Assembly: GCA_018432615.1 (NCBI GenBank)
Contig: JAHDSQ010000015.1
Coordinates: 1-60,021 of the forward strand
DNA length: 60,021 nt
From: Clostridia bacterium
Lineage (GTDB): Bacteria; Bacillota; Peptococcia; DRI-13; SM3-B62
Reading direction: 5' to 3'
The notes beneath the pieces were generated by a model. That model did not search any database and had not been told where the DNA came from. It saw nothing but the letters and a program-made list of their open reading frames with translations. How positions within the stretch are numbered: position 1 is the first letter of the stretch; each line of letters begins with the position of its first letter. The translations under genes and the position numbers were made by a program. Below are positions 2,352-45,656 of the stretch, piece by piece.

Positions 2352-3812
2352 TTATATTTTTAAAACGAACCAAAATACACTGCCCCGTTTCACTTCAGAA
2401 GAAACACCGTATTCACCATCATGCAAATCAATGATTGATTTTACAATGGAAAGGCCCAGTCCTGTACCGGCAACGGCTCGCTTGTGGGTCTTATCCAGTT
2501 TGTAGTACCTATCCCAAATATACGGCAAGTCTTCTTCTGAGATGCCCTCTCCGCTGTCAATAACCTCTATCTTCACTTTCCCACTGTCTGCCGTTTGCCT
2601 CACAACGACACTTTTGTCCTTACCGGTGTAGTTAACAGCGTTAATCAACAGATTGTAAAATGCCTGGGAAATCTTTGTTTCATCCGCTGTGATATAGATT
2701 TCACAGTCATAAAGAAATTTAATAGTATATCCGTCTGTACGAAGCATCTCATTCATTCGCTTAATAGTCGCCTTGATACTTTCCGTCAGATTGTAATTGC
2801 TGAGTTGCAGACTCTGCACACCGGCCTGGAGCTTGGAAATATCTAACACATCGTTGACTAAAGTGGTAAGCCGTCTAGTTTCATCTACGATAATCTGTGC
2901 ATTTTCAGCATTGCTCTCATCCGGAAAGTCACGCATCGCTTCGGCGTAACCGCCGATTAAGGTCAACGGCGTCCTGAGATCATGGGATATATTGGCAATA
3001 AGTTCTTGTCGTAAGCCTTCGACTTTGGAAAGTTCTTTAGCCGTATAGTTCAATGTCTCGGACAACTCGCTGATTTCCTTGTATCCATCCCCATGGAACT
3101 CCGTCTCATAATTGCCGGAAGCCAACATTTTGGCACTTTCATTTATTCTCTCAATAGGCTGTGATACTCTTTTGGCTATAACAAAAGCCAGAAGAGCAGA
3201 AAAGATAATCATAAATCCCGTAACATAATAGAGTTGAGTCCGCAACGTTGTAACCGTTGCATTCACAGGAGAAATGACGGAATTCAAAAGCAGCATCACA
3301 CTACGCCCGCTATTATCCGTTATGACTTTAGCATAAATAATTGTTTCTTGCCTCTCTATACCCGGCGGAGGAATCCTGCCTATGAACTTATTTTCCTCAT
3401 ATACCCTGTCTTGATAAATGTCGCCATGGCGATAATACTCCAAGAGCTCACCGCCCTTTTCCTCTGTTTTCTTGAACAACACAGCCTTTTCAAAGGGTGG
3501 CATCCTTTGTATGATACCGTCCCTCAAGATGCCGGAAGAAAAAAGCTCCATGCCGTTTTCTAATACAACTTCAACGCAAACGTCATTAGCGACAGCAATC
3601 CGCTCTATTAATTCAGGCAGATCCTCGTTTTCAATATTCTTGATAATGGCAGCCGCACTGCTATTTATTTCTTTGATTTTGATGTTTTTATAAAAGCTTT
3701 CTAAAAACACAACCTGAAAAAGCCACAATAAAACTAAAAGGGCGGAGCAAAACCCCAGGAGGAAAATGAAAATCTTCCATTTGATGCTGATATTGATACT
3801 TATACCTTTCAT
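2352..3812 (-). CDS. Sensor histidine kinase (HAMP/HisKA/HATPase)
   Basis: 486 residues, inner-membrane sensor of an OmpR-family two-component system. Order: membrane helix at about 12-35, extracytoplasmic sensing region at about 36-190, second helix at about 195-213 (MIIFSALLAFVIA), HAMP at about 215-265, HisKA with the phospho-accepting His in ELIANISHDLRTPLT (about 275), N box near LLINAVNYT, and ATP-binding G boxes DSGEGI and GTGLGLSIVKS near the end. Length is normal. Its ATG overlaps the response-regulator stop by four bases (ATGA), so the pair is translationally coupled. The signal is unknown; the neighbouring VTC/DUF4956/lipoprotein operon is a plausible target. Confidence 0.93.
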   Translation of the reverse strand: MKGISINISIKWKIFIFLLGFCSALLVLLWLFQVVFLESFYKNIKIKEINSSAAAIIKNIENEDLPELIERIAVANDVCVEVVLENGMELFSSGILRDGIIQRMPPFEKAVLFKKTEEKGGELLEYYRHGDIYQDRVYEENKFIGRIPPPGIERQETIIYAKVITDNSGRSVMLLLNSVISPVNATVTTLRTQLYYVTGFMIIFSALLAFVIAKRVSQPIERINESAKMLASGNYETEFHGDGYKEISELSETLNYTAKELSKVEGLRQELIANISHDLRTPLTLIGGYAEAMRDFPDESNAENAQIIVDETRRLTTLVNDVLDISKLQAGVQSLQLSNYNLTESIKATIKRMNEMLRTDGYTIKFLYDCEIYITADETKISQAFYNLLINAVNYTGKDKSVVVRQTADSGKVKIEVIDSGEGISEEDLPYIWDRYYKLDKTHKRAVAGTGLGLSIVKSIIDLHDGEYGVSSEVKRGSVFWFVLKI

Positions 3813-29291: not shown

Positions 29292-29378
29292 GCCGCGGTG
29301 GCGGAATTGGCAGACGCAGTAGACTCAAAATCTACCGCTCGCAAGGGCGTGGGGGTTCAAGTCCCTTCCGCGGCACCA
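29292..29378 (+). tRNA. tRNA-Leu (anticodon CAA), with encoded CCA
   Basis: Acceptor stem GCCGCGG pairs with CCGCGGC. Anticodon stem GTAGA/TCTAC encloses loop CTCAAAA (anticodon CAA, reads UUG). A long variable arm CGCTCGCAAGGGCG and T arm GGGGGTTCAAGTCCC mark it as class II, and the 3' end is ACCA. Its 3' half is repeated in pieces at 30.05, 31.01 and 45.56 kb, indicating use as an integration site. Confidence 0.96.
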
Positions 29379-31008: not shown

Positions 31009-31054
31009 AGACCCAAAATCTACCGTTCGCAAGGGCGTGGTGGTTCAAGTCCCT
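31009..31054 (+). repeat. tRNA-Leu scar B: anticodon arm to T arm
   Basis: Forty-six bases matching tRNA-Leu from the anticodon stem to GTCCCT of the T arm, with three mismatches. Both the 5' half and the acceptor 3' end are missing, so it cannot work as a tRNA. Ends where scar A begins within the tRNA sequence. Confidence 0.8.
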
Positions 31055-31083
31055 ATTTCAGGCAAAAAACGAAGCTGTGCTCT

Positions 31084-31389
31084 TTAACCTGCATTACACC
31101 TGTGAGCCATCGGTATCATCGCTGTCACCTTGGATACAAGGGCTTCTTTACCGTTAATGTTAATCCCTTTTTCAAAGCTAAAAACGGCAACATCTTCAAA
31201 ACAACTTGCGTATAAAATTAAAACATTTTCCCCTTTACTCTCAGTAAGTGGTTGTGTAAATCCTGATGCCCCAAACGATAGACTATCACCTGTTTCGCTG
31301 TTAATATAGCTAATTTCATTTTGCTTTGTCATATCGCTTGGAAGCTTAAGGCTAATGCATATTTCCGTTGTAACAACAACCAAAGTCAC
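31084..31389 (-). pseudogene. Decayed copy of the 41-kb lipoprotein gene
   Basis: The frame is similar to the N-terminal domain of the lipoprotein at 41049-42023: shared VVTTE, ISLKLPSDMTKQ, ETGDS and INGKEA segments in the same order. It lacks the signal peptide and lipobox, as well as the whole C-terminal half, and ends in unrelated sequence next to tRNA scar B. A LytTR-type repeat pair lies upstream, but the matching -10 box has been lost. Confidence 0.75.
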
Positions 31390-31423
31390 TGATTCACTAA
31401 AAAATCGGTTCGAAGCGTAGTTG

Positions 31424-31454
31424 CATGAGATGTCGTTTTTATATCATGAAATGC
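31424..31454 (-). promoter_or_regulatory. LytTR-type direct-repeat site 1
   Basis: Minus strand: GCATTTCATG and ACATCTCATG, 21 bp start to start. Same repeat pair as at 39.5, 43.7 and 45.1 kb. Precedes the decayed lipoprotein copy; at the expected position the sequence is CAGTGA, not a -10 box. Confidence 0.75.
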
Positions 31455-31457
31455 ATC

Positions 31458-32726
31458 TTATAAAATAACTCTCACCTTAAAGACTCCATCTTCAGCAGAA
31501 AAGGAATATAGACCGCTATATTTTCGCACGGTAGCTGCTATGCTTTTTGTGCCAAAACCGTGGTTTTCTTGAGCACTTATGGGCATATCTTCTGCGAATA
31601 TGACCTCACCGTAGAAATTGTTCGTAACTTGAATAAACAGCTTATCATTTTTAGACTTGCAGCTAATATTGATCTTTCTGGCATTGATATCTTCTATCTT
31701 CATACAGGCATATATGGCGTTTTCTATAGTATTAGCTAGAATAACGCACAAATCCATATCTGAAATTGCACAGTCTTGAGGAATATAAGCCTGCGACTCT
31801 ACCAGAATATTTTCATTCTTAGCCATATTGATGTAGGAGGATAAGATCAAGTTTACTGTTGTGTTTTCACAAAATTTTATTGTCACTGTGTCCTCAGGAT
31901 CTGTTTCGATTTCCGTAATATATTTTTTTATTTCTGCAAATTTGTTCTCAGCCAAATAACCATTTAGCAGGTTCAAATGGTGACGCATGTCATGGCGATA
32001 GATAATTGTATTTTCCTCTGCTTCTTTCATCGTTTCATAGCGAGCCTGTAAGACAGACACCTGCATTGCTAAGATATTCTGTTCATTTTGCATAATAAGC
32101 TGTTCTCTGGTTTGTTTAAAAAAACGTAAAATTAACACATAGGCTGCAATAATCAAAATAGCAACCATCGTATCAAGCCATAATATGGGTTCTTCTCTCA
32201 CCAGTTCCACGTCATACCTTCCAAGTGTATAAGTAAATGCATTGTAGGAAAGTGGTATCAAGCAAAATGTTGCCCAACCTTTTTTTGTATTACGTAACAT
32301 ATAAATAAATAAGGGACGAAAATACTTGTACACTATAAACGTCATGGGTAGATACATAACTATGCAAACAACATTTAATATCACGTCATTGTAGCCAAAG
32401 GTTGCTGAAACAATCTGCCCTAGCAACATGGGAGGCGAAGCTAAAACGATGACTGTCAAAAGAACAAAAAGGAGCTTTATTCCTTTATATTTCGATATGA
32501 ACCAGAATAATATGAATAGCGGCACCTGTACAAAAACAGGGTAGAAAATCATAAAGCTCTGATAACCCAAGCTAAACCAAACAAACCCACCACAGACAAG
32601 TAAGATGGTCATAAATAGACCCATCATGTAAATCCCCTTTTTGCGCTTTACCTCCAGGTCCAAAAGAATGTACATCAAGACGATACTATAGCCAATGGTA
32701 ACAAAAAATTCTATCAAATCCATCAT
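31458..32726 (-). CDS. GHKL-type sensor histidine kinase (AgrC-like)
   Basis: 422 residues from the ATG eight bases after GGAGG. N-terminal half: six to seven membrane helices. Cytosolic half: coiled-coil linker, His box IIYRHDMRHHLNLLNGYL, N box DLCVILANTIENAIYA, and a G box in ENHGFGTKSI of the GHKL ATPase, HPK10-like as in AgrC. Closely similar along its length to the kinase at 39.6 kb. No regulator is adjacent; the only LytTR response regulator is at 43.9 kb. Lies downstream of the giant surface-protein gene behind a terminator. Confidence 0.9.
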   Translation of the reverse strand: MMDLIEFFVTIGYSIVLMYILLDLEVKRKKGIYMMGLFMTILLVCGGFVWFSLGYQSFMIFYPVFVQVPLFILFWFISKYKGIKLLFVLLTVIVLASPPMLLGQIVSATFGYNDVILNVVCIVMYLPMTFIVYKYFRPLFIYMLRNTKKGWATFCLIPLSYNAFTYTLGRYDVELVREEPILWLDTMVAILIIAAYVLILRFFKQTREQLIMQNEQNILAMQVSVLQARYETMKEAEENTIIYRHDMRHHLNLLNGYLAENKFAEIKKYITEIETDPEDTVTIKFCENTTVNLILSSYINMAKNENILVESQAYIPQDCAISDMDLCVILANTIENAIYACMKIEDINARKINISCKSKNDKLFIQVTNNFYGEVIFAEDMPISAQENHGFGTKSIAATVRKYSGLYSFSAEDGVFKVRVIL

Positions 32727-32762
32727 AGCTACTGCCTCCGTACTGCCAAAAATCAATTTTGA

Positions 32763-32803
32763 GGAAAAAAGGCTCCAGGTCTTTTACCTGGAACCTTTTT
32801 TCT
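32763..32803 (-). terminator. Terminator after the giant surface-protein gene
   Basis: Minus strand: AAAAAAGG, TTCCAGGT, loop, ACCTGGAGCC, TTTTTT. Strong stem between the surface gene and the kinase. Confidence 0.85.
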
Positions 32804-32814
32804 TTATGATGTTT

Positions 32815-35800
32815 CTATTTCACTACACTAACCGATCTACTAGCTGGGAACCACATTACCTGAGCGCCAAAGGTTTCCGAGATGTAGCGCAGAGGCACCA
32901 TTGTCCGCCCACTAACGATGGTAGGTTGTGTATCCATGCCCGGGATAGTCGAACCTACGGTTAGGGCTAATCTTTGGGAACCACTTTGGAAGGTTACGGT
33001 CTTGGTCTTGTCGTTCCAGTCAAAGGTGGCGCCCAGTGCCTCGCCGATGAAGCGTAGCGGCACGAAGGTGCGGTTATTAATGAGGGTAGGCGGCACATCA
33101 ATAGCTTTGTCCTGACCATTCAATTTGGTTATGGTATTGCCTATGGTCAGATTCAACACTACCAGGCCGTTCTTTTGCAATACCGTATAAATGCTGAACC
33201 GATCGGTGTAGAAGGTGATAGTTTTGGTAACCGGATCATAGCTGCCACCCAGAAAGACGGGAACTACATTGCCGTCAGCATCCTTCTCCAGACGGGCTCC
33301 GGAAAGACCGCTGATCTGCTCGTCCGTCAGGACCAAGCCGGAAAGGTCTATAGTCACGGCCACAGGCTGGCTAAAGGTTGAAACGTTTTCCGTATTTGTA
33401 GCACCGCCTGTTGTAGTACTTACTTGGGCCGTGAAGTTGAAGACCTGTCCGCCCACCTGAAAGATACCTGTGCTTTCACCCAAAGGAGCAGCCGCTAGGA
33501 TGTCCAGTTGTTCCTGGCTCGTTACAGCCGCTGCGCCGATTTGCACGGTGGTATTACTCTGTCCCACGACTTGGGTGGTCTGCAAAGAGTCTGGGTCAAA
33601 CTGCAAGCTGACCCCCTGCCCGGTGACGGTCAGCGGCTTACTCAACTCGGACAACTGATTGAGTACATTGCCGGTGATATTAGCCTGTCCGGTTCCAGTA
33701 GAAACCAGATCTATCTTCGCTTCCCCGGTTTTTTGCAGGCTGATTTCCAGCTTCTGCTCATCCTGAGTCATAATATCGGTGAGTATTGGTGCAATCAGGG
33801 CTGGAAGTTGATTACCTCCTCCGCCTGAACTGCCTTCTCCGGAATCACCTCCGCCAGAGGAGGAATTGACCACCTGGGTTACTGTGAAGGTCACATTCGT
33901 CATGTTAGTTGCTGATACGGTTACGGTTGCCGTATATGTACCCACTGCCAGTCCATCATTTGCTTTTACGGTAAAGGTTGTATTTGGTGTTCCGTTATTT
34001 AATGTTGTTACAGCAGGTTGGGTTATGGTAAAGCTTCCTGCGTTTGCCCCGCTTAAGGCTGTGGCTACGCTCGCAAGGTCACCTGTTCCTGTTCTGGTGA
34101 TGGTCAGTGTTTTTGTCTCCTGCGTACCTGCTCCATACCCCGCCGTTACTGCTGTCAGTGTCTGATCGGTGATAACTGTCATGGTATAGGTAGTTGGTGG
34201 AACTGCTCTTGTTACTTTAATCGTATAAGTCTTGGCTGTTTTGCCTGTTTCTGTGGCAACTACAGTTATCGTCTTCTCAACTCCTGCGTCTAGTGGGATT
34301 GCACCAGAAGCCACTGTTGTTGCTACTGGTGTTCCATCTACTGTGATTGTTCCTGCACCTGTAGGTGTTACCGTGATGCTGGCTACGCCATTTGCTACCG
34401 TTACTCCATCGTAGGTGTAGGTTCCTCCGGCAAATGTATAGTTACCCGGTGTTCCGCTTAGCACTAATCCGGTTAGGTTTGCGGATGCTGCTTGGGTATA
34501 GGCTGCGCTTCCTATTGCACTGTTGGTCATGCCTGCTTTTACGGCTATGGCTTTTACTATCACTGGCGCATTGATCACCAGTGGGGTCGTTGCTTGGTTG
34601 GTTGATGCTGTTGTTGGATCGGTTCCGTCTGTTGTGTAGTAGATGGCATCGGCTCCTGCTGAGCTGATTGTTACCGTGCTTCCATAGGCTATTGCTCCCG
34701 CTCCTGGGCTAAAGGTCGGCGTTGCTTGGACTGGCGCTGCCGCTACGCTTACTGTGAAGGTTCTTACTCCTGTTACTTTACCTGCCTCTGTTGTTGTTAC
34801 TACGATTGTTAGGTCACCGACTGAGGCAATGGTGTAGTCTGCTCCGCTTGTGTATGCAGCTCCATTGACGGTTATGGCTGATGTACCACCTGCATCTGTT
34901 ACAGTGAGTTTAATCTTATCGTTTGTCCCGGTTACCCAACCGGTTATTGCTCCTGTGGTGTCTGTTGCTCCTGCTGCCGGGATGACTACGTTTGTTACAC
35001 CGCCCACAGGATTTGCACCGCCTCCAGCTAAAGCGATGGCACTAGGTGCTGTGGCCACTGCCTGGGTATAGGCTGCGCTTCCTATTGCACTGTTGGTCAT
35101 GCCTGCTTTTACGGCTATGGCTTTTACTGTCACTGCTGAATTGATCACCAATGGGGTCGCTGCTTGGTTGGTTGATGCTGTTGTTGGATCGGTTCCGTCT
35201 GTTGTGTAGTAGATGGCATCGGCTCCCGCTGAGCTGATGGTTACTGTGCTTCCATAGGCTATTTCTCCCGCTCCTGGGCTAAAGGTCGGCGTTGCTTGGA
35301 CTGGCGCTACCGCTGTTGTAAATGCGATCGTTGATACTTCGGATTTGTTTAGTACTACATCTTCTACAATTACGTATGCTTTATAGGCTGTTGATGCCGT
35401 TAATCCGTTTATACTCACGCTATTGGCTGCTGCCAATGCTGCCGCTGTTCCTTTTTTCACAGCGGCACCTTGTGCTCTTACTGTTGCTGAAGAAGGTACT
35501 GCATCAGTCGCGGCATATACCAGATAATAATAGGTCCCCGCTTCATCTGAAGTAAAGTTTATGCCAGCACTTGTTGCTGTCTCGCCGCTTGAGCTTGTCG
35601 CACTCAGTATCGGTGGTCTTGCATCGACAAGCACGTTGGTTGTGCTACCCACTCCTACCAGTGCCCAATTTGTGAGATCGTTCAAGGCTACATCCTTTAT
35701 TGTACTACCATTAGCATCCAGAGGTGAATTGACTGCAATACCGTCAGAATCGTTCTCATTCACTATGGTATAGCGGAAAACTAAGGCCGAAGTACCGCTT

Positions 35801-38595
35801 CCGCTAATATAAGCGGCATTGACACTAGAGCCGCCTATATCAATAATCAGACGGGGAGTTCCACTGACAGTGACATTTTCACTAAAATTGACGGTGAAAT
35901 CCAAGTTCTGCCCAGCAGTGTACGTTGCGTTGGAGGGAACGCTCACAGAGGTAACCAACGGTGCTGTTGTATCTGCCGCTCGGGTTATGGTTACGGTATA
36001 ATACTTCACCGTTGTCGTATCCTGTGCCGTAACCTTGATATAGGCTACAGTGTTACCTACTGCTAGAGGAAGGGTATCTGCACCTGTGATTTCTGTGGTG
36101 AAAGCCGCATTAGAGTACAGCTTGAAGGTTGCATTTGCCGCCACTGCAATATCTCCCAGGGCTAATGTGGATTTGGCATTGGCCACGTCCAACTCCCAAG
36201 CTATGGCATTTCCTGCATCCGCGCCACTTTGTGCTCCCGGAGTTGCATCCGTTAGCGCTGCTACAGTTGTCAGATCTGCGTTGCTGCTTGCTGTTGCAAA
36301 GGCATTACTGTCATTGTTCACCACAGTTACAGCATAACTATTCGGGGCGTATGCTGCTGTCGCAGCGCCGGTGGGAAGGTAGAAGGTCAGCAAACCAACG
36401 TCCGTGGTCTTGACGCCTGTCAAGCCATAGCCAGAAGCTGCCGATCCTCCCAGGGTCAAACTGCCGCCACTTACATCTGTTACGGCACTGATACCTGGTA
36501 GCGTGAGCGTGGTTTTGTAGACGGGCGTTGTGCCGTCAGCTTTGGTCAACTTCCCAGCAGTATTACCTGTCACTGTGTCAGTAATACTGCCGCCACTGAT
36601 TCGGATATTTCTTGAGCCGGTAATAGTACCACCTATGCTACATCCACCATTGACTCCTATGAGTGTGCCCCCGCTGATGTTAACATTCGTACCGCCAGTA
36701 ATATCGTTGGACCTACTACCGCCGTAAATTGTATTCGCGAACGTGCCGCCGTTAATGTTAACATTCGTACTGCCGGCAATATCTCCAACCCATGTGCCTC
36801 CATGGATAATACCACTGAACGTGCCGCCGTTAATGGTAATATTCGTATTACCATTAACATTGGTACCACCACTATACTTCCCGCCGCCATAAACGGAGGT
36901 GAATGTGCCGCCGCTAATGATAATATTCGTACTTTGGGTAGTAGCGGGATCGTTAGCACTGTCAGTGCCGCCATAAACGTATTTTAACGTACCGCCGCCA
37001 ATAGTTACATTTGTGTTACCTGTAACATCGCCATCTTCAGAGCCTCCGTGGACTTCCGTGTCGACCGTACCGCCGCTGATAGTAACATTCGTATTACCTA
37101 TAACATTGGTATAACTAGAGCCTCCGTAGACTTTAGTGGCCTGACCGCCCCTCATGGTGACATACGTATCGCCGGTAACCGGGTAAAATTTCCCACCGCC
37201 CATTAGATTTTGAACTTTACCACCGAGCATAGTAATTTGGGTGTTACCTACCAACGCAGCTACGGTTCCTTTTCCACCGTAAATATTGTAAGTCGAGAGG
37301 TCGTAGCCACCGTTAGATGCGCTCGGCGCGCTCAGCCCAAGTAAACTGAGATCAACAATTGTATCTGTTCCAGGTTCGTACATACCAATAACACCATTAT
37401 CTAAATAGATATTGGATAATAAGGGAAATGCATCGCTGACCTTGTCAATGATAATCGTGTTGCCATTGGCATAAATATCCTTATTATTAATTCCCTCCCC
37501 AATCGAAAACTCCTCAGCCGCTAAGGCCGCTGTAAATGCCACACCTGATATTGCAGAGATATTCCCTGCTACATCCACGGCATATACTTTATATTCTGTT
37601 CCATTTGTGACGCCTATATTATTGGGCAATATTGCTATTGTCGTATTGGTAGCTGCGCCCGCTGAGGCCGCACTTCCTATCGCGGCACCGGTGATTGCAC
37701 CTATTGTGTTTCCTGTTCCTGATGGTACTACATATAATGTGCCTGTTGCTTCACTGCTTATGGCTACTACATTAAACCCTGCTGCTTTCTCTGCTGCACT
37801 GACCAGCGCATCACCACCTGCAGTTGTTCCTGCTACGATTGTGGCGGTTGGAGAAGTATGGTCAAAGGTATAGCTTTCTCCGCCTGTATAGCCTCCGCTT
37901 ATATCCATATTTGCAGTATTCTTTATTCCTGTTCCGCTATTATTTAAATCCAGTCGCATCGTACCGTCGCCGGTGATTGATTGAATTAATACATCATAGG
38001 TAGTTCCGCTGACTTCTGTTACCGTTGCTATTGTTCCAGCTGTTCCTGATGTTGTTAGTCCAAAGTCAGTGGTATCTACTCCGGTAACAGGTTCACTGAA
38101 TATCACCCTATAGGTGACTTCAGTTGCATTGGTTGTTGCTGAGGCAGGAGTTTGGCGTGAGATGGAGTTCACCTGCGTTGATAGCAATCCACCTCCAGTG
38201 ATAACGAGGGTTGATTGAAGTCCATCAATATCCCAATTATATATGCCTATGTAATAAGTTTGACCAGCTGTAAGATTCCATGTCATACTGAAATTTTGAT
38301 CTAGAAAGTCATCATTGTCACATAATTGCATGCCACTTTCATCGTAAAGAGTACCCACTGTATCCACAACACCTGTTGTTTTGATGGTATATTCACCGCT
38401 AATTGCGGGCACAAATCTAAAATTACGCTCGGCTGGGTAGCTAACGATATCAGTAGGTGATGTAGTAATTAAGGGCGTAGTGATATCTTTTGTCATTCCT
38501 CCCTCAATCGCTGCATAGACATTTGCACTTGGCAGCACAAATAACATTAGCATTACCAAAGCAATAATTACTTTGTATCTTTTTTTCATTTTCAT
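32815..38595 (-). CDS. Giant secreted multi-domain surface protein
   Basis: 1926 residues from the ATG six bases after AAAGGA, giving a signal peptide MKMKKRYKVIIALVMLMLFV ending near ANVYA. Order: pre-peptidase-like beta domain (about 40-135); Ig-like domain (VNSISRQTPASATTNATEVT); a solenoid-like block (about 420-680) of repeated NTNVTISGGT / VYGGS units; Ig/cadherin-like domains with KYYTVTITRA and KTYTIKVTRA; two near-identical chitobiase-like domains (YYTTDGTDPTTAS); a Ser/Gly-rich linker; and two copper-amine-oxidase N-like repeats (NNRTFVPLRFIGEALGA, SGRTMVPLRYISETFGA) at the C-terminus, often used for wall attachment. Probably adhesion or carbohydrate binding. Largest gene of the island. 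Confidence 0.88.
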   Translation of the reverse strand: MKMKKRYKVIIALVMLMLFVLPSANVYAAIEGGMTKDITTPLITTSPTDIVSYPAERNFRFVPAISGEYTIKTTGVVDTVGTLYDESGMQLCDNDDFLDQNFSMTWNLTAGQTYYIGIYNWDIDGLQSTLVITGGGLLSTQVNSISRQTPASATTNATEVTYRVIFSEPVTGVDTTDFGLTTSGTAGTIATVTEVSGTTYDVLIQSITGDGTMRLDLNNSGTGIKNTANMDISGGYTGGESYTFDHTSPTATIVAGTTAGGDALVSAAEKAAGFNVVAISSEATGTLYVVPSGTGNTIGAITGAAIGSAASAGAATNTTIAILPNNIGVTNGTEYKVYAVDVAGNISAISGVAFTAALAAEEFSIGEGINNKDIYANGNTIIIDKVSDAFPLLSNIYLDNGVIGMYEPGTDTIVDLSLLGLSAPSASNGGYDLSTYNIYGGKGTVAALVGNTQITMLGGKVQNLMGGGKFYPVTGDTYVTMRGGQATKVYGGSSYTNVIGNTNVTISGGTVDTEVHGGSEDGDVTGNTNVTIGGGTLKYVYGGTDSANDPATTQSTNIIISGGTFTSVYGGGKYSGGTNVNGNTNITINGGTFSGIIHGGTWVGDIAGSTNVNINGGTFANTIYGGSRSNDITGGTNVNISGGTLIGVNGGCSIGGTITGSRNIRISGGSITDTVTGNTAGKLTKADGTTPVYKTTLTLPGISAVTDVSGGSLTLGGSAASGYGLTGVKTTDVGLLTFYLPTGAATAAYAPNSYAVTVVNNDSNAFATASSNADLTTVAALTDATPGAQSGADAGNAIAWELDVANAKSTLALGDIAVAANATFKLYSNAAFTTEITGADTLPLAVGNTVAYIKVTAQDTTTVKYYTVTITRAADTTAPLVTSVSVPSNATYTAGQNLDFTVNFSENVTVSGTPRLIIDIGGSSVNAAYISGSGTSALVFRYTIVNENDSDGIAVNSPLDANGSTIKDVALNDLTNWALVGVGSTTNVLVDARPPILSATSSSGETATSAGINFTSDEAGTYYYLVYAATDAVPSSATVRAQGAAVKKGTAAALAAANSVSINGLTASTAYKAYVIVEDVVLNKSEVSTIAFTTAVAPVQATPTFSPGAGEIAYGSTVTISSAGADAIYYTTDGTDPTTASTNQAATPLVINSAVTVKAIAVKAGMTNSAIGSAAYTQAVATAPSAIALAGGGANPVGGVTNVVIPAAGATDTTGAITGWVTGTNDKIKLTVTDAGGTSAITVNGAAYTSGADYTIASVGDLTIVVTTTEAGKVTGVRTFTVSVAAAPVQATPTFSPGAGAIAYGSTVTISSAGADAIYYTTDGTDPTTASTNQATTPLVINAPVIVKAIAVKAGMTNSAIGSAAYTQAASANLTGLVLSGTPGNYTFAGGTYTYDGVTVANGVASITVTPTGAGTITVDGTPVATTVASGAIPLDAGVEKTITVVATETGKTAKTYTIKVTRAVPPTTYTMTVITDQTLTAVTAGYGAGTQETKTLTITRTGTGDLASVATALSGANAGSFTITQPAVTTLNNGTPNTTFTVKANDGLAVGTYTATVTVSATNMTNVTFTVTQVVNSSSGGGDSGEGSSGGGGNQLPALIAPILTDIMTQDEQKLEISLQKTGEAKIDLVSTGTGQANITGNVLNQLSELSKPLTVTGQGVSLQFDPDSLQTTQVVGQSNTTVQIGAAAVTSQEQLDILAAAPLGESTGIFQVGGQVFNFTAQVSTTTGGATNTENVSTFSQPVAVTIDLSGLVLTDEQISGLSGARLEKDADGNVVPVFLGGSYDPVTKTITFYTDRFSIYTVLQKNGLVVLNLTIGNTITKLNGQDKAIDVPPTLINNRTFVPLRFIGEALGATFDWNDKTKTVTFQSGSQRLALTVGSTIPGMDTQPTIVSGRTMVPLRYISETFGAQVMWFPASRSVSVVK

Positions 38596-38733
38596 GACCA
38601 TTCCTTTCACTCTTTTATACCTTTTTGTGTATTCCTCATGATTGTTGGAATTGCTTGATCCAAAAGCCAATTATAATAAGGAATATTCTGTGCCGCCGGT
38701 AATGCTTGTTGAATGACAATTTTGTGTGAAAAT

Positions 38734-38776
38734 AAAGAAGCTATACCTCAAATTACTTTGGCTGTATAGCTTCTTT
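38734..38776 (-). terminator. Terminator of the repeat lipoprotein gene
   Basis: AAAGAAGCTATAC and GTATAGCTTCTTT, a 13-bp perfect stem with a 17-base loop, followed on the minus strand by TATTTT. Separates the lipoprotein gene from the giant surface gene. Confidence 0.8.
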
Positions 38777-38796
38777 GGTTGTCAATTTCACTCTAG

Positions 38797-39420
38797 TTAC
38801 TTTAAGGGAACAGCAACCGCTTCTTTATAAGCCTGTAAATCTTGAATTAACCCATCAAGATCTGCACTCATTACATCGGCATCAATGTTTTTTGCCTGTT
38901 CTGGATCTTCAATGAGGGCTTTTATTTTTTCAATTTCGTCGGCAAGCCCATTATGTATTTTTAGAAATTCTGCGTCATCGTTCCAGCCATTTGCCTCTAC
39001 GAGCTTTGCTGCCTCATTAAAAATATCCGCAGCCTGATTATACTTTTTCGTAACCTCTGTAAGGTCTGGAGCACTGTCTAAGGGAACAGCAACCGCTTCT
39101 TTATAAGCCTGTAAATCTTGAATTAACCCATCAAGATCTGCACTCATTACATCGACATCAATGTTTTTTGCCTGTTCTGGATCTTCAATGAGGGCTTTTA
39201 TTTTTTCAATTTCGTCGGCGAGCCCATTATGTATTTTTAGAAATTCTGCGTCATCGTTCCAGCCATTTGCATTCACAAGCTCTGCTGCCTCATTAAAAAT
39301 ATCCGCAGCCTGATTATACTTTTTCGTAACCTCTGTAAGGTCTGGACCGTTGCCGCCGCATCCGGCAAGCAGAAAAACTGATAAAACAAGCATAAGTAAA
39401 ATAGAAATATTTTTTTTCAC
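38797..39420 (-). CDS. Lipoprotein with two tandem 92-residue repeats
   Basis: 207 residues from GTG 39420, eight bases after GGAGGG. Signal peptide and lipobox LLAGC, then two almost identical repeats starting PDLTEVTKKYNQAADIF and ending YKEAVAVPL. Each repeat is helical with a NANGWNDDAEF core. The unknown 45-kb remnant shares this core (YNEVAALAVKNGW). Transcribed away from the GHKL kinase at 39.6 kb, with a LytTR site and a matched -10 box upstream. Exported; function unknown. Confidence 0.85.
   Translation of the reverse strand: MKKNISILLMLVLSVFLLAGCGGNGPDLTEVTKKYNQAADIFNEAAELVNANGWNDDAEFLKIHNGLADEIEKIKALIEDPEQAKNIDVDVMSADLDGLIQDLQAYKEAVAVPLDSAPDLTEVTKKYNQAADIFNEAAKLVEANGWNDDAEFLKIHNGLADEIEKIKALIEDPEQAKNIDADVMSADLDGLIQDLQAYKEAVAVPLK
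38804..39346. repeat. 276-bp tandem duplication inside the lipoprotein gene
   Basis: Copies at 38804-39070 and 39080-39346, offset 276 bp, nearly identical with only a few substitutions (for example in AELVNANGW versus AKLVEANGW). In frame, so a recent duplication that doubled the protein domain. Confidence 0.9.
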
Positions 39421-39470
39421 GCTATTTTCCCTCCACAATAGTTTTATTTTCAGTGCACCTGATATAGGTA

Positions 39471-39539
39471 ACTATAAACTATAAGTCGCTACTGCATTTC
39501 ACCCTCTGCATGAGATGTAGTTTTTTCGTCATGAAATGT
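39471..39539 (-). promoter_or_regulatory. LytTR-type direct-repeat site 2 with -10 box
   Basis: Minus strand: ACATTTCATG and ACATCTCATG (39539-39509), 21 bp start to start. The -10 box TATAGT (39476-39471) begins exactly 33 bp from the edge of the near repeat, with no good -35. Drives the repeat lipoprotein. Confidence 0.82.
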
Positions 39540-39621
39540 AATTTCAGCCATTTCTTTGTGACTGTTCTGTTATAATAGAACTTGCCACCGAGGCCAAAAG
39601 GTTGATAGGGGATAAAATATT

Positions 39622-40890
39622 ATGATGGATTATATAAGGTCTCTTCTTAGCTTTATTTTCGCAATCAGCGTGATGTGTATGCTCTTGGATTGCGAAATCA
39701 AATACAAGAAGCACCGTTATCTGTTGGGGTTTTACGTAGCTGTCGTACTAGTTTTCGATATGCTTGTTTTACTCAATTTCGGGTATGCATATTTTATGAA
39801 GCTTTATCCCCTGCTTGTCCACCTTCCGACATTTATAGCGTTTTTGTTTGTTTCAAAATTCAAACCAATAAAGGTATTTTTTATTCTTTTGACACTTGTC
39901 GCTATCAGCACATCGTTTTCTATTGTAGGTCTCCTTATTTCATTATTTTTTGACTCCAGTAGGGAAATCGTGAACATTGTTTGCTATATTCTGTATCTAC
40001 CCACCGGTGTTATTGTTTACAAATATTTACGTCCCTCTTTCCTTTATATGATGCACAACACAGATAAAGGCTGGTTAGGATTTTGTATTATTCCGCTTAC
40101 ATACTATATGCTTGTTTATTCTATTGCAAAATATGATTTGGACAATCTAGTTAGTGATTGGGTTGTAAGGGACGCTGTGTTACTCTCTATTTTGACTACT
40201 TCAGCTTATTATCTGATTCTACGATTTTTCAAACAAACCAGAGAACATCTCCTCCTAAAAAACGAACAGGATTTATTGAAAACACAAGTAACAGCAGCAC
40301 AGGTGCATTTGAAATCCTTGCAAGACTCACAACAAAAAACAATCATTTATCGCCACGATATGCACCATCATTTGAATCTGATCAATTCCTATCTAACTGA
40401 CAACAACCAAGTGGCTGCACAAAGATATATTGCCGAGGTTGAAAATTGCATTGAAGATGTTATGGTTGAAAAATATTGCAACAATTATACGGTTAATTTG
40501 ATCGTATCTTCCTATATTGACAAGGCCAAAAATGAAGGAATTACAGTCGAAACCCAGATCAATCTCCCGGAGAAAACCGCCATATCCGACATGGACCTTT
40601 GCGTTGTTTTTGCCAATGCCCTAGAAAATGCGATTAATGCCTGTAAAAACATTCCGAACTCAAAAGACAGAACCTTAAAAATCCTCTGCAAGACCAAAAG
40701 CAATAAGCCCTTCATCCAAATCACCAACAGCTATGGAGGAAAGGTAGTGTTTGTGGACAGCATGCCTGTAAACACTGAGGAAAATCATGGTCTGGGAACG
40801 AAAAGCATTGCTGCAGTAGCCCAGAAATACGGCGGCATGTATTCCTTCACTGCCCAAGATGGATTATTTCAGACCAGTATTATACTGTAA
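39622..40890 (+). CDS. GHKL-type sensor histidine kinase (AgrC-like)
   Basis: 422 residues. Six to seven membrane helices to about residue 205, coiled-coil linker, His box IIYRHDMHHHLNLINSYL, N box DLCVVFANALENAINA, G box ENHGLGTKSI. Sister of the kinase at 31.5 kb. Divergent from the repeat lipoprotein with LytTR site 2 between them. Probably phosphorylates the LytTR regulator at 43.9 kb. ATG 39622 follows GGGGAT; the next codon is also ATG. Confidence 0.92.
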   Translation: MMDYIRSLLSFIFAISVMCMLLDCEIKYKKHRYLLGFYVAVVLVFDMLVLLNFGYAYFMKLYPLLVHLPTFIAFLFVSKFKPIKVFFILLTLVAISTSFSIVGLLISLFFDSSREIVNIVCYILYLPTGVIVYKYLRPSFLYMMHNTDKGWLGFCIIPLTYYMLVYSIAKYDLDNLVSDWVVRDAVLLSILTTSAYYLILRFFKQTREHLLLKNEQDLLKTQVTAAQVHLKSLQDSQQKTIIYRHDMHHHLNLINSYLTDNNQVAAQRYIAEVENCIEDVMVEKYCNNYTVNLIVSSYIDKAKNEGITVETQINLPEKTAISDMDLCVVFANALENAINACKNIPNSKDRTLKILCKTKSNKPFIQITNSYGGKVVFVDSMPVNTEENHGLGTKSIAAVAQKYGGMYSFTAQDGLFQTSIIL

Positions 40891-40959
40891 TGAACTTAAT
40901 TTTCATTTAAGGATTCTTTAAGGATTCTAGTGTCGCAGAATACCCTGTCCCGTCCTTAA

Positions 40960-41010
40960 CGAACAAGTGCATGGTCAGAGAATATTGACCATGCACTTGT
41001 TCGTTTTTTT
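40960..41010 (+). terminator. Terminator of the second GHKL kinase
   Basis: CGAACAAGTGCATGGTCA and TGACCATGCACTTGTTCG, an 18-bp perfect stem, followed by TTTTTTT. Also able to end the convergent lipoprotein transcript. Confidence 0.92.
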
Positions 41011-41048
41011 AAACTACGAGATAGGGGGGTAAATTCCTTACTGGGTAT

Positions 41049-42023
41049 CTACACACCTAAGTCTTTCTTCATGGACTCAGCCTTTGTTAAAAATTCTTCA
41101 ATCTTGGCATCAGATTCATCTAACACAGCAAAGGCAGCATCTACTTCAGCTTCAGTAGCAGGTTGCGTCAAAACTTCAAATAATTGTGCATATGCATCTT
41201 TTCTTAATTCGACAGCCTGAATAAAAAGATTATGCACTTCTTGAACTTCCGTCGTTTGTGGCGTGTAAGCTTTCATTTTTTCAAGCAAGGCATTATTCTT
41301 TGCAGGAAGGGTTTCTGATAATGCTTTTGCTAAAATCTTACTATCTGCAGTTAAGGCCGCCTCTGTATAGATTTCCTGGATAGCTCTATCTTCAGGTTCA
41401 AAAATTGTACCGAAATTATTATAGAGATATTCTGAAAAATCGTCTTTTACAGAGGTGCCAGCTGAAGTACTTGCAGATGTACTATCAGGGGTACTAGCAA
41501 TCGTTATGCTGTCGATACAAGCTTGTAGATTTTTATAAAGTGCGCCATCTGTTTTATCTTTTCCATAAACAAAATTTACAAGATAATTATTCGTGTCATC
41601 AGTAACCATAACAAGTGTAAGTGTAACCTCATCGCCTTCGGGAGTTGTTAAATTTTGCTGAGATACAACCGCTTCCTTACCGTTGATTTTTATGCCATTT
41701 TCAAAGCTTGTTACTACAACATCGTCATATTTACTTTGGTACATTGCTAAAACCTTTTCCTCTGTCGCGCTCGAAAGTGGGTCTCCACCAATTTCTGTAA
41801 CGCCAAAGGCTGCAGTATCACCTGTTTCCATGTTAGCATAGGCACCATTGTCTTGCTTTGTCATATCGCTTGGAAGCTTAAGGCTAATGCCTTGCTCTGT
41901 GGTGACATCAACCAAACTCACAGCTTCGGCAGTAGTACTGGCTTCTCCACCACAACCAGCAAAGCTAACAACTATGACCAATAATAGTGCGATGGTCATC
42001 GTTAGTGTAATAATTTTTTTCAT
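41049..42023 (-). CDS. Lipoprotein, intact member of the island family
   Basis: 324 residues from the second of two adjacent ATGs (six bases after AAGGGAG). Signal peptide and lipobox SFAGC. N-terminal domain (about 35-165): a mixed alpha/beta unit with GISLKLPSDMTKQ and INGKEAVVS, PsbP/DcrB-like in layout but not assignable. Ser/Thr linker, then a helical domain (about 185-324) rich in Glu/Lys. Fragment copy at 31.1 kb. Only 33 bp after the CAO/CBM gene, so probably expressed from its promoter at 43.7 kb. Confidence 0.82.
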   Translation of the reverse strand: MKKIITLTMTIALLLVIVVSFAGCGGEASTTAEAVSLVDVTTEQGISLKLPSDMTKQDNGAYANMETGDTAAFGVTEIGGDPLSSATEEKVLAMYQSKYDDVVVTSFENGIKINGKEAVVSQQNLTTPEGDEVTLTLVMVTDDTNNYLVNFVYGKDKTDGALYKNLQACIDSITIASTPDSTSASTSAGTSVKDDFSEYLYNNFGTIFEPEDRAIQEIYTEAALTADSKILAKALSETLPAKNNALLEKMKAYTPQTTEVQEVHNLFIQAVELRKDAYAQLFEVLTQPATEAEVDAAFAVLDESDAKIEEFLTKAESMKKDLGV

Positions 42024-42056
42024 CATAATCTCCCTTGATATAAGTTTAATGTTTTT

Positions 42057-43604
42057 CTATTCAGTTACAAAATCAATATAATCTATGTAAATTAGGTCAT
42101 CAGAACCAAGACGAACCATAACCTCTGCGTCTTTTGGAATTTCAACATTGAATGTAATTTCTTGATAATCATTATATCCATGCGTGTTCGGAAAATTAAA
42201 CGTATCAATTTTTTCCCCATTAACATATAAATTTACATTTCTTGTATTTTTAATATTTGCATATCCAAAAGTTAAAGAAGTAGCAGAAGGACTATTTTTA
42301 AAAGTAACCGAACCATCAGCGTATTCGAATTCTACAGCTTCTCCGCCGCTAATACGTTTAATAGGAGCTTTGTAAGCGAAATATATATCTCCATCTTCAG
42401 CTTCTAATCTAACATATTTAGGAGGTACAACAGAGGCAATTGCTGTATCAACCGTAATTGTATTTGTTACGCCATCCCAACCAACTCCGATACCGAACAC
42501 CTCTGCAATATCACGCAACTTGAAATAGTTGTTGCCGCCGATATTGTAAGCTGTAAATGACGTTTCTTTGCCGTTTACATAGATTTTTGATTTGGTAGCC
42601 GTAGCGGTTTTTGCCTTGCCGTCACCTTTTGAAAGCTCGCCGCCCACAGCATTGTACGCTTTTTGGCTGGTAAGGGTGATAGCGTTTGTCGCATTGTCAT
42701 ATCCTACTGCAAACTGCTTGCTCGTACCCGATACCACTTTCGCAAGGTCCCGGAGTTTAAAGTAATTGTTCCCGGCAATGCTATAAGCTTCAAAAGAGAC
42801 CTTTTTGCCATTCACCAGCACCGTGGACGCGGTGGGAGTGGCTGTAAGCCCTTGGGCGAATGGCACACCGTTACTTAATCCAGAGTCTGCCATCAAGGCT
42901 TTCGCTTCTGCTTCCGTTACGACATAAAAAGCAATATTGCTTCCTAGATCATGAAACTCGTCAGGGAATGGGTATATTTGGAATGTCCCATGATCATTTA
43001 TCGTCTTTTTAAATGTATATGTTTGTGCCTTATCGCCGCCCCACATTTGGTAAAAATACGATTTCCCTCCTCTTACCGTTAGCAACGGGGTCGTTCCTGG
43101 GAATGCATGAGTCCAATCCTGTTGGTGTTGAAAGTATCCAGTAGCTCCTAACTCTATAGTCATTTTAGAACCTTCAACAACAGGGATAAGCTTAATTTGA
43201 GATTTTTTTTCAGGACCAAAACTTTCTCCAAATTCAATTATAGTTTGAGCAATTTTTTCTCTCGGTACAATGACCATTTCTCCTCCCTGATATGAGTGGA
43301 CCTTGTATCCTGTTATAGGAACGTTGTCACCCGGTTTGTTAGGGGAATAATCAGGATGTCCTATAAATGGATAGGTGTAACCATAAGCGTCTGGTAACGT
43401 TGCAAGCTTTACATGATCATCGTCAATTTGTTCACCCACCACTCCAGTAAGTGTTATTTTTATAGTGCCCTCTAAGTTAATATTAGTTAGATTAACATCC
43501 CACTGTAGTGTTGCGTAGTCTTTGACAGCGGCAAAGCAAGTACTTACCATAAGCACGGACATAACAAACATCATAATAATTAAAACAACTAACTTCTTTT
43601 TCAT
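42057..43604 (-). CDS. Secreted protein with copper-amine-oxidase-like and CBM-like domains
   Basis: 515 residues with signal peptide MKKKLVVLIIMMFVMSVLMV ending near CFA. N-terminal beta domain of unknown type (about 25-240), containing a membrane-attack-like pattern I cannot name. Then two copper-amine-oxidase N-like repeats (VLVNGKKVSFEAYSIAGNNY, KIYVNGKETSFTAYNIGGNN, each followed by FKLRDLAKVV/FKLRDIAEVF) and a C-terminal CBM6-like beta sandwich (YVRLEAEDGDIYF, NVNLYVNGEKID, DDLIYIDYIDF). First gene of an operon with the lipoprotein; LytTR site 3 and a TATAAT lie upstream. Confidence 0.85.
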   Translation of the reverse strand: MKKKLVVLIIMMFVMSVLMVSTCFAAVKDYATLQWDVNLTNINLEGTIKITLTGVVGEQIDDDHVKLATLPDAYGYTYPFIGHPDYSPNKPGDNVPITGYKVHSYQGGEMVIVPREKIAQTIIEFGESFGPEKKSQIKLIPVVEGSKMTIELGATGYFQHQQDWTHAFPGTTPLLTVRGGKSYFYQMWGGDKAQTYTFKKTINDHGTFQIYPFPDEFHDLGSNIAFYVVTEAEAKALMADSGLSNGVPFAQGLTATPTASTVLVNGKKVSFEAYSIAGNNYFKLRDLAKVVSGTSKQFAVGYDNATNAITLTSQKAYNAVGGELSKGDGKAKTATATKSKIYVNGKETSFTAYNIGGNNYFKLRDIAEVFGIGVGWDGVTNTITVDTAIASVVPPKYVRLEAEDGDIYFAYKAPIKRISGGEAVEFEYADGSVTFKNSPSATSLTFGYANIKNTRNVNLYVNGEKIDTFNFPNTHGYNDYQEITFNVEIPKDAEVMVRLGSDDLIYIDYIDFVTE

Positions 43605-43656
43605 TTAAAATCCTCCCTTTATTTATGGTGCCAGCCTCTACTTCATGCTCAGCGTT

Positions 43657-43725
43657 ATTATAAAAGAAAAGGCGACTCATATGTTCATCGCCTGCATGAG
43701 ATGTCGTTTTTGCTTCATGAAATGT
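43657..43725 (-). promoter_or_regulatory. LytTR-type direct-repeat site 3 with TATAAT
   Basis: Minus strand: ACATTTCATG and ACATCTCATG (43725-43695), 21 bp start to start; TATAAT (43662-43657) starts exactly 33 bp from the near repeat. The -35 position reads AACATA, poor, as expected for an activator-dependent promoter. Confidence 0.85.
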
Positions 43726-43896
43726 AAGTTTTGATATTTTCTAACTAACGACTATGGTAGATTAATAGAAGCCAACCGCTATCATAATGTCTCTACAATT
43801 ACTAACCTTGTCAGCCTCAGAAAGTCTCAATCCACTTGAAATAACACGATCGTTATTTTGAAGCCCTAAGATATAGGTATTTCTTGCGGCGAATTC

Positions 43897-43905
43897 TGGT
43901 ATAAT
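43897..43905 (+). promoter_or_regulatory. Extended -10 promoter of the LytTR regulator
   Basis: TGGTATAAT, an extended -10 element, 34 bases before the ATG of the response regulator. No convincing -35. Confidence 0.55.
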
Positions 43906-43938
43906 GTAGAGCGTGGCACAAAATATTGAGGTGACAGC

Positions 43939-44667
43939 ATGAAAATTGCTATATGTGATGACAACAAGCAAGAACTCTTATTGATCACTGGCCTTGTGAA
44001 CGAATTTTCAGACTGCAATTCTGCAGAAAATAAAATAGAAATTAAGAGTTTTACTAGCAGTATAGAATTACTGAGCCAGCTAGAAAACGGTAGAAATTTT
44101 GATGTTTTTATTTTGGACATCATTATGCCTATCCTAAATGGTATCCAGCTAGCCGCCGAGATCAGAAACAAGGATCAGGTGGGCAAAATCATATTTTTGA
44201 CTTCATCCTCGGAATTTGCCGTGGATTCATACTCTGTAGATGCTTTTAACTATCTGATAAAGCCCATACAAAAAGATAAGCTCTTTACTATTTTAGAAAA
44301 AGCCTGCCTCGATATTTCCAGCGACCTGCAACAATATATCGTTGTAAAAACGCAAAACGGCTTGTCCAAGGTCTTCCTCCACGAGCTGCTCTATGTTGAG
44401 GTAATCCGAAGAACTATATATTTATATCTAAAAAGCGGGATTGTATTAAAAAGCACCAGTACGATATCTCAAATTGAAGCTATCTTATTACAAGATATAC
44501 GTTTCATCAAACCTCATCGCTCCTATATCGTCAACTTAAACTATATCAAGAACCTATCACAAGATGGCATTACGACGACAAGTGACTTGCTTATACCTAT
44601 ATCAAGAAATGCTTTCAAGGAAGTAAAACAGGCCTATATCAACTATTCTTTTCAAGTGGAGGATTAA
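43939..44667 (+). CDS. LytTR-family response regulator (AgrA-like)
   Basis: 242 residues. Receiver with D7/D8, phosphorylation site D60 in DVFILDIIMPILNG and Lys in YLIKPIQKDKL. LytTR DNA-binding domain at about 135-240: YIVVKTQNGLSKVFLHELLY, FIKPHRSYIVNLNYIKNL. Proteins of this type bind pairs of 9-10 bp direct repeats 21 bp apart, exactly the spacing repeated four times in this island. The only regulator here, so probably served by the GHKL kinases. Confidence 0.94.
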   Translation: MKIAICDDNKQELLLITGLVNEFSDCNSAENKIEIKSFTSSIELLSQLENGRNFDVFILDIIMPILNGIQLAAEIRNKDQVGKIIFLTSSSEFAVDSYSVDAFNYLIKPIQKDKLFTILEKACLDISSDLQQYIVVKTQNGLSKVFLHELLYVEVIRRTIYLYLKSGIVLKSTSTISQIEAILLQDIRFIKPHRSYIVNLNYIKNLSQDGITTTSDLLIPISRNAFKEVKQAYINYSFQVED

Positions 44668-44782
44668 CAGGCGGGCATTCTTAATTTTTATCCCCGTTAT
44701 TTTTCATTTTGCAAAAATAATAGCAATTATCTTTTTCACATATTCATCCTCCATCAACACATTGTTCTTTGTTTCTGAAATA

Positions 44783-45040
44783 TTAATAGACACCCCACCC
44801 CGCAAAAACGGAAAGGACTAAACCGCAAGCTGTGTTTAATTCTGTTACAGTCGCTTCATCTGCTTCCCAGCCATTTTTAACTGCCAAAGCTGCGACCTCA
44901 TTATAAACCGCTACAAGCACTTCATTTTTTCCCTCCAATTCCTTTAGTTTTCTATGTTCTTCCATAACCGTCGGATCTTTGGAAGCTTCGGAGGTAGATG
45001 GTGCCTGAGAAGGCATGGGTTCAGTTGTATCACCACTATA
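44783..45040 (-). pseudogene. Truncated lipoprotein gene joined to a LytTR promoter
   Basis: The open frame extends to an ATG at 45061, but that ATG lies upstream of the promoter's own -10 box (45040-45035), so translation from it is implausible. Encoded sequence: a Pro/Ser/Thr linker like those after lipoboxes, then a helical stretch with VYNEVAALAVKNGWEADEA akin to the repeat lipoprotein. No signal peptide. A deletion seems to have removed the 5' leader and signal sequence. Confidence 0.6.
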
Positions 45041-45103
45041 AACAAAAAAAGATTTCGACATTTAATCACCTGCATGAAATGTCGTTTTTCTGTTTTGAAA
45101 TGC
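45035..45103 (-). promoter_or_regulatory. LytTR-type direct-repeat site 4 with -10 box
   Basis: Minus strand: GCATTTCAAA and ACATTTCATG (45103-45073), 21 bp start to start. TATAGT (45040-45035) again starts 33 bp from the near repeat. Its downstream gene is truncated. Confidence 0.75.
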
Positions 45104-45159
45104 AGTTTTCGGTATTATTTGATATCTTCTTTATATCGTCTGAAAATACTATCCTTTCA

Positions 45160-45247
45160 GTTGGAGAAAAAACACGGACTTGGCACGAAAAGTATTGTAG
45201 CGATAGCACAGAAATATAGCCGAATGAATTCCTTCGCATGCAAATAA
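45160..45247 (+). pseudogene. C-terminal remnant of a third GHKL kinase
   Basis: Encodes EKKHGLGTKSIVAIAQKYSR followed by MNSF, matching the G-box end of the two intact kinases (ENHGLGTKSIAAVAQKYGGM). Everything upstream of the G box is gone. Divergent from the truncated lipoprotein with LytTR site 4 between, the same arrangement as at 39.5 kb. Confidence 0.8.
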
Positions 45248-45280
45248 TGAGTCTTTTAGACGAACGTTATACAATAGAGA

Positions 45281-45310
45281 AAGACCGCACCTTGTTAGGG
45301 CGGTCCTTTA
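45281..45310 (+). terminator. Probable terminator after the kinase remnant
   Basis: GACCGC, 11-base loop, GCGGTC, then CTTTA. Modest stem. Confidence 0.5.
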
Positions 45311-45559
45311 CTACATCAGGATATGGCTCATAAAGCTTTTTATAATATTCTTCATTTTTTACAGTCATCATCTCCAAAATTACTTGTCAGTGGTAGGATG
45401 ACGTCCATAAATTTCTCCAAAATGAGTTTTTTAAAGGTCTTGAAATGCCGGATTTTTTTGAGATCGAAGCGCAGGAAAGGCCAGTTTTACAGGGTTTTTT
45501 TGATCTGTAGCTTCCGATAAATTACACTCAGCTCCGGATACTTCCACTGGAACTGTAAA

Positions 45560-45597
45560 ACTCATAATCTACCGCTCGCAAGGGCGTGATGGTTCAA
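45560..45597 (+). repeat. tRNA-Leu scar C: anticodon arm to T loop
   Basis: Thirty-eight bases matching tRNA-Leu from the anticodon loop to GGTTCAA of the T loop, with three mismatches. Same strand and same kind of fragment as scar B. Marks the right edge of the island. The 250 bp to its left hold nothing I can assign. Confidence 0.75.
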
Positions 45598-45656
45598 TGC
45601 TTTTTTGTTATACTTTTATATTTGCCCTGCTTAAACTCACATTCTAGTTGATAATG

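Follow-up and report, generated by a model that had tools for sequence, protein, structure and literature searches.

The 60,021-nucleotide stretch of Clostridia bacterium DNA analyzed here (the window; assembly GCA_018432615.1, contig JAHDSQ010000015.1) contains an island that probably, at roughly 0.85, encodes a LytTR two-component system: a single response regulator, encoded at position 43939, would bind a paired-repeat operator, recruit RNA polymerase to a −10 box at a fixed distance and switch on lipoprotein and surface-protein genes. A signal would be perceived at the membrane, and the sensor kinases HK1 and HK2, both with GHKL domains, would each phosphorylate the regulator; bound to the paired repeats, it would act as an activator at the box, and the target genes would be turned on together. 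The operator letters, their 21-bp period, the A-tract spacer, the 30–33-nt gap to the box, the poor −35 region, the conservation beside the regulator and the island boundaries are all read directly from the sequence. The same element recurs at a near-fixed distance from its box beside close relatives of the regulator in five other genomes, which suggests that the regulator likely co-switches surface genes. Coordinates are collected in Table 1.

A first-pass annotation had claimed four paired-repeat sites with identical geometry, and these are present. The pattern RCATYTCATG-N11-RCATYTCAWR has three exact minus-strand matches in the window (operators 1 to 3), with a chance expectation of 0.00 (100 shuffles), and the fourth pair (operator 4) has an imperfect left copy carrying CAAA. 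The 10-nt repeats stand 11 nt apart in all four pairs, a period of 21 bp. The claim that a box starts 33 bp from the near repeat at three sites is likewise confirmed: 32 nt separate the end of CATG from the box at operators 2, 3 and 4. The annotation also placed every site upstream of a lipoprotein or surface-protein gene, which is correct for operators 2 and 3 and fails for operators 1 and 4. The promoters at work in the window would be those of operators 2 and 3, and operators 1 and 4 look like fossils left by gene decay.

Across the 3.16-Mb genome, loose matching of the repeats alone is noisy (48 matches at up to two mismatches versus 8 in the reversed control), and the A-tract spacer was therefore added to the search key; all three zero-mismatch matches to the repeats alone lie inside the window. 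With repeats plus A-tract, at up to two mismatches, the genome-wide search returns four matches, the four window sites, and none in the reversed control.

Relatives of the regulator at 68–73% identity occur in HGW-Firmicutes-12 (HGW-12), Petroclostridium sp. X23, Clostridia bin.58 (b58), a Syntrophomonadaceae assembly and a record titled Calditrichales MX18-03, and the element is present in all five; the regulator search gave nine loci in all, and the four beyond these genomes are more distant or partial. The Calditrichales record (L038) has Firmicutes-like genes at the regulator locus, and its title may be wrong. The search with repeats plus A-tract gave 29 matches, of which 23, in six genomes including the source genome, were accepted; a seventh genome, G001 of the same genus, has no match. 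Six matches (G064:C23, G061:C11, two in G062 away from the locus, G060:C182 and G063:C165) were dropped by judgement before counting, following no single fixed rule: the ACG before the A-tract is missing in all six, and also in six accepted sites, and G060:C182 has no mismatch to the loose pattern and three to the strict one. The box played no part in choosing the accepted sites, and none of the six dropped matches, checked after selection, has one at 30–33 nt. Conservation in the majority sequence of the 23 sites, TTACATTTCATGACGnAAAAAyGACATyTCATGCAG (36 bp), covers the A-tract spacer as well as the repeats. A TATAAT-like box (at least 5/6 matches) follows the repeat by 30–33 nt in 21 of the 23, exactly 32 nt in 12, compared with a mean of 1.08 and a maximum of 5 in 2000 shuffles; the exceptions are operator 1 and L045:3074 of HGW-12 (TATGCT, 4/6, at 32 nt). 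The annotation's central claim, a LytTR regulon with mostly exported targets, is borne out by the same element, promoter gap, regulator and kinase genes in other genomes and by an empty site for the island in G001.

Several observations weigh against this reading. Operator 1 has no box at the 32-nt position (its best is TTTAGT at 22 nt), and two of the four window sites, 31424 and 45073, precede remnants. Among the 23 accepted sites, two drive no gene, only a short hairpin with a T-run, and the zinc-ribbon/SPFH operon targeted in X23 has no evident export signal. Terminator-like hairpins separate SURF from LIP1 on one side and from HK1 on the other, which argues against a single transcript from operator 2 through HK1 and weakens the candidacy of HK1 as part of that transcript. 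The regulator, described in the annotation as the only one of the LytTR type, is the sole LytTR match in the window and one of four LytTR proteins in the genome; the three others could bind the element. Finally, genome G032 has operator, kinase and targets and gives no regulator match at an E value of 1e-15 (its assembly is 93% complete).

The last two points would favor another binder: the element would be a promoter operator, and the 43939 regulator a bystander, with any of the three remaining LytTR proteins as a possible binder. This is unlikely, since the element accompanies the 43939-type regulator in six genomes, G001 lacks both, and in all five other named genomes the operator lies 74–76 bp from the regulator start. 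The LytTR domain of the regulator is only 19–33% identical to those of YpdB, BtsR and the three other LytTR proteins, and a sister regulator is adjoined by a sister operator.

The 43939 regulator could instead be mainly a repressor at these sites. Sequence does not fix the direction of control, and the divergent start of the regulator gene itself is also close to operators, but the promoters are built in a way that makes repression quite unlikely: at 16–18 nt spacing the best −35 scores at most 3/6 matches in all 21 boxed sites, and the repeats stop short of the −35 position on its upstream side, a layout described for LytTR-activated promoters, with repeats about 10 bp upstream of that position, in PMC6193735.

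That the repeats are mobile or duplicated DNA riding on gene duplications, with no regulatory function, is highly improbable: the island clearly holds duplicated kinase, lipoprotein and stalk genes and the flanks of three window sites are 70–73% alike over 74 nt, but when sites with similar downstream DNA are pooled, 17 groups remain that have unlike downstream DNA and different genes, 15 of which keep the box at 30–33 nt (shuffle mean 0.85, maximum 4, 2000 shuffles), and all 23 sites lie outside intact genes, facing a same-strand gene or a hairpin unless the gene has decayed.

Table 1. Features of the island and its boundaries (window coordinates)
Feature	Position	Strand	Remarks
Left boundary repeat, partial tRNA-Leu(CAA) copy	31009..31054	+	93% over 46 nt to tRNA-Leu 29321-29366
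Island	31049..45599	.	14.55 kb; missing from same-genus genome G001 (blastn of G001 stretch L124 against the window)
LIP2-like gene remnant behind operator 1	31133..31395	-	DNA 73-75% to LIP2; 54% over 94 aa
Operator 1	31424..31454	-	without box; adjoins HK1 stop; likely fossil
HK1, second sensor kinase with GHKL domain	31458..32723	-	open reading frame (ORF) as listed to 32756; PF14501; 71-76% among HK1-type copies
SURF, large predicted surface protein	32815..38670	-	two Cu_amine_oxidN1 stretches; PF07833, PF13290, PF13287, PF12733
LIP1, lipoprotein by N-terminus	38797..39420	-	ORF as listed to 39438; LLAGC near start; orthologues in X23, G032
Box TATAGT of operator 2	39471..39476	-	32 nt from repeat
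Operator 2	39509..39539	-	upstream of LIP1, divergent from HK2
HK2, sensor kinase with GHKL domain	39622..40890	+	PF14501; 52-73% identity among HK2-type copies
LIP2, lipoprotein by N-terminus	41049..42026	-	no Pfam match; PsbP/Mog1-like fold matches, weak model
STALK, predicted exported protein	42057..43604	-	Cu_amine_oxidN1 + CBM_6 domains (Pfam); 86% orthologue in X23 behind same operator
Box TATAAT of operator 3	43657..43662	-	32 nt from repeat
Operator 3	43695..43725	-	upstream of STALK and LIP2
Response regulator, receiver + LytTR domain	43939..44667	+	Pfam PF00072 59.8 bits, PF04397 46.6 bits, both above cut-off
Lipoprotein remnant behind operator 4	44783..45061	-	without signal peptide; first ATG upstream of box; 43% over 89 aa to HGW-12 lipoprotein
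Box TATAGT of operator 4	45035..45040	-	32 nt from repeat; within remnant reading frame
Operator 4	45073..45103	-	left copy imperfect; upstream of lipoprotein remnant
HK2-type kinase C-terminus remnant	45167..45247	+	63% over 27 aa to HK2 residues 386-412
Right boundary repeat, decayed copy of same tRNA-Leu part	45558..45603	+	83% over 46 nt, 92% over 38 nt

The first gene behind the 23 sites encodes an exported, lipo- or membrane protein in 16 cases, signal peptides and lipoboxes being called by visual inspection and a simple pattern. The other first genes comprise one kinase (HK1 of HGW-12), the X23 zinc-ribbon/SPFH operon and three remnants or broken genes (31424, 45073 and L086:7443). Pfam names among the first or following genes include Cu_amine_oxidN1, RCC1, BspA-type LRR, S-layer homology, LemA and DUF2207, together with PGA_cap, clostripain, and M23 and M14 peptidases. 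The two sites without a gene, L037:3948 and L045:4682 (HGW-12), are boxed and face the 3′ end of HK2-type genes; each would give a transcript of about 50–60 nt consisting of the hairpin and T-run, possibly a small RNA or a reused terminator. Within the window, a 268-nt stretch of LIP1 is duplicated in tandem inside the gene (97% alike) where its X23 orthologue is single copy. The fold model of LIP2, built from three sequences, has a mean predicted local distance difference test score of 63.6, and its PsbP and Mog1-like matches are a hint only. A 20-pair hairpin with a T-run at 40958–41005, between the convergent HK2 and LIP2, is likely a two-way terminator. HGW-12 (L045) has kinase, operator and intact lipoprotein where the window has HK1, operator 1 and a remnant, the HGW-12 lipoprotein being from another family. 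At operator 4 the neighbor is the kinase remnant of 27 residues.

Both kinases carry an RHD motif and several N-terminal membrane spans by hydropathy count; their Pfam scan gives PF14501 and a sub-cut-off PF14689 match only, with no LytS-type domain. HK1-type copies (compared from the window, HGW-12 and b58) and HK2-type copies are 44–54% identical to each other. Because each regulator locus has between one and three kinases of usual length for one intact regulator, several kinases likely converge on one regulator. The operator stands directly upstream of HK1, with a weak box, in HGW-12, which makes positive feedback on HK1 possible there; in b58 it stands upstream of a lipoprotein gene followed by HK1. 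The annotation saw no AgrB gene, and indeed none lies in the island, which is on C59 of the assembly: the two AgrB matches of the genome are on contigs C15 and C58, and AgrB occurs at ten places in four of the five other genomes, none at the regulator locus. For AgrD there was a by-eye look only, among ORFs of at least 60 aa in the window and at least 70 aa in the relatives, lengths that exceed that of AgrD. On C58 of the same genome (G000:C58:932-1650), a GHKL kinase gene sits beside an AgrB gene near the contig end, a separate Agr-like candidate.

The boundaries of the island come from comparison with G001, whose PolA is 94% identical to the one here. Its stretch L124 aligns at 2021–2424 with window 46003–45600 and at 2513–3434 with window 31048–30129, leaving 88 bases between the two segments; G001 has one tRNA-Leu-derived repeat at the site versus two in the window, the pattern of an empty site for a tRNA-gene island. 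Gain here and loss in G001 both fit this comparison. No integrase was recognised by eye among the ORFs of at least 60 aa or by Pfam in the eight ORFs scanned. Base composition is uninformative (42.0% guanine plus cytosine inside, 43.4 and 45.1% outside), and as a search for an RNA element Rfam gives tRNA-Leu only. The adjoining window segment 29292–31054, shared with G001, is an insertion hot spot where tRNA-Leu(CAA), gene pairs of toxin-antitoxin-like type and a tRNA 3′ copy stand side by side. PolA identity is 61% for G060, 50% for G061, 48% for G063, 42–55% in pieces for G062 and 35–37% in pieces for G064; since the regulator stays at 68–73% in all five genomes while PolA is lower, there is a hint that the regulator system was transferred between genomes. 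In the protein search, at least 60% identity is reached by 96 among the 120 matches listed of 529 at an E value of 1e-30, own included; in plasmids and phages every relative of the regulator stays below 60%.

Wider searches place the operator in few genomes. The strict form occurs in 3 of 46 class genomes (4 in the source genome, 10 in HGW-12, 1 in G032), with no match in the reversed control. The G032 match was untargeted: its operator lies upstream of LIP1 and LIP2 orthologues, an HK2 orthologue (69%) runs divergently, and TATAGT follows at 31 nt (counted by hand). A looser pattern over 60 relatives gives matches in 15 genomes (4 in the source genome, 10 in HGW-12, 4 in G055, one or two in the others) and control matches in six genomes. 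In a phylum sample searched at up to one mismatch, 8 of 398 genomes match, including the source genome; the other seven have one match each, and the reversed control has two. The seven 3-kb stretches from that sample, with three viral-contig stretches, gave no match to eight island proteins at 1e-5, whereas two positive controls matched, and plasmids gave no match to the element. One viral contig (L099:949) carries CATTTCAT-N13-CATTTCATG, then TATACA about 32 nt on, with no island-protein relatives in the 5.6 kb covered. Single repeats of the AAAACCGCATTTCA type with a 21-bp period occur at L096, L097 and L098 (G144, G177 and G055, one genus).

A broader picture can be offered tentatively, as a doubtful possibility: a plug-in surface regulon on a mobile island, in which several interchangeable GHKL kinases act on one regulator, any envelope or surface genes captured behind the 36-bp operator join the response, and orphan operators mark former members. 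The operator code and promoter gap shared with E. coli YpdB across phyla, at 25% regulator identity, might then go back to an old LytTR recognition code that survived as kinases and targets were swapped. For anaerobes that are known mostly through metagenomes, sequence gives the regulator, its likely kinases, the operator, the promoter gap and the likely targets, and the operator serves both to predict targets and to locate the system in genomes without annotation, as in G032.

Among the papers listed by a literature search whose coverage mostly leaves out subscription journals, no title points to this system. Two papers were set aside, PMC6222199 because it deals with a regulator of the OmpR family and PMC5552118 because it deals with gamma-proteobacteria. 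Among known systems, AgrC/AgrA quorum sensing shares with the island a LytTR regulator and kinases of the GHKL type (PF14501) whose N-terminal part has several membrane spans, but the island has no AgrB, nor does the neighborhood of the regulator in the other genomes searched. The operator letters also differ from the AgrA consensus. The annotation had likened the repeat geometry to that of LytTR/AgrA sites; the LytTR-type spacing stands, and the closest operator seen is instead the E. coli YpdB site. LytTR Regulatory Systems such as HdrRM likewise have direct repeats, 9 bp long and spaced by 12 bp, upstream of the −35 position, but in them the partner of the LytTR regulator is a membrane inhibitor (PMC6193735), whereas the island has a receiver-domain regulator with two kinases.

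The sister system, whose regulator is 39% identical, occurs in G025, G011 and Acetoanaerobium noterae with a variant operator alongside. Like the island, it pairs a regulator gene with a kinase gene and has the A-tract and the 21-bp period, and its divergent genes encode exported proteins (G025, G011) or LemA and a zinc-ribbon protein (A. noterae; LemA 63% identical to an HGW-12 target, the zinc-ribbon protein 25%). Its repeats differ, being of ATGATTCATG or TGTTTCATG type, and its box scores just 4/6 at 30 nt. Near 20 more distant regulators, variant operators were seen only at L020 and L021; other repeats with a period of 20–22 were also seen. Across these systems the operator keeps its layout as its letters drift.

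The closest counterpart, judged by operator, would be YpdA/YpdB (PyrS/PyrR) of E. coli. According to PMC4847170, YpdB binds GGCATTTCAT direct repeats in yhjX, and LytTR operators are defined as two repeats of 9–11 nt with 11–13 nt between, a range into which the island operator falls. K-12 yhjX DNA shares with the island the CATTTCAT core in both repeats, the 21-bp period and a 32-nt gap (TATGGT 32 nt after CATG, counted by hand). The conserved A-tract spacer is a feature of the island operator, set against the YpdB site. The proteins are more distant: YpdB, also a LytTR regulator, is 25–26% identical to the 43939 regulator, too little for orthology. The partners differ too, with a LytS-type kinase and a single major facilitator superfamily target there (PMC4847170), and GHKL kinases and mostly exported targets here. 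Should the match between the two operators stem from a shared recognition code, it would be relevant to the remark in that paper that LytTR regulators have no common consensus.

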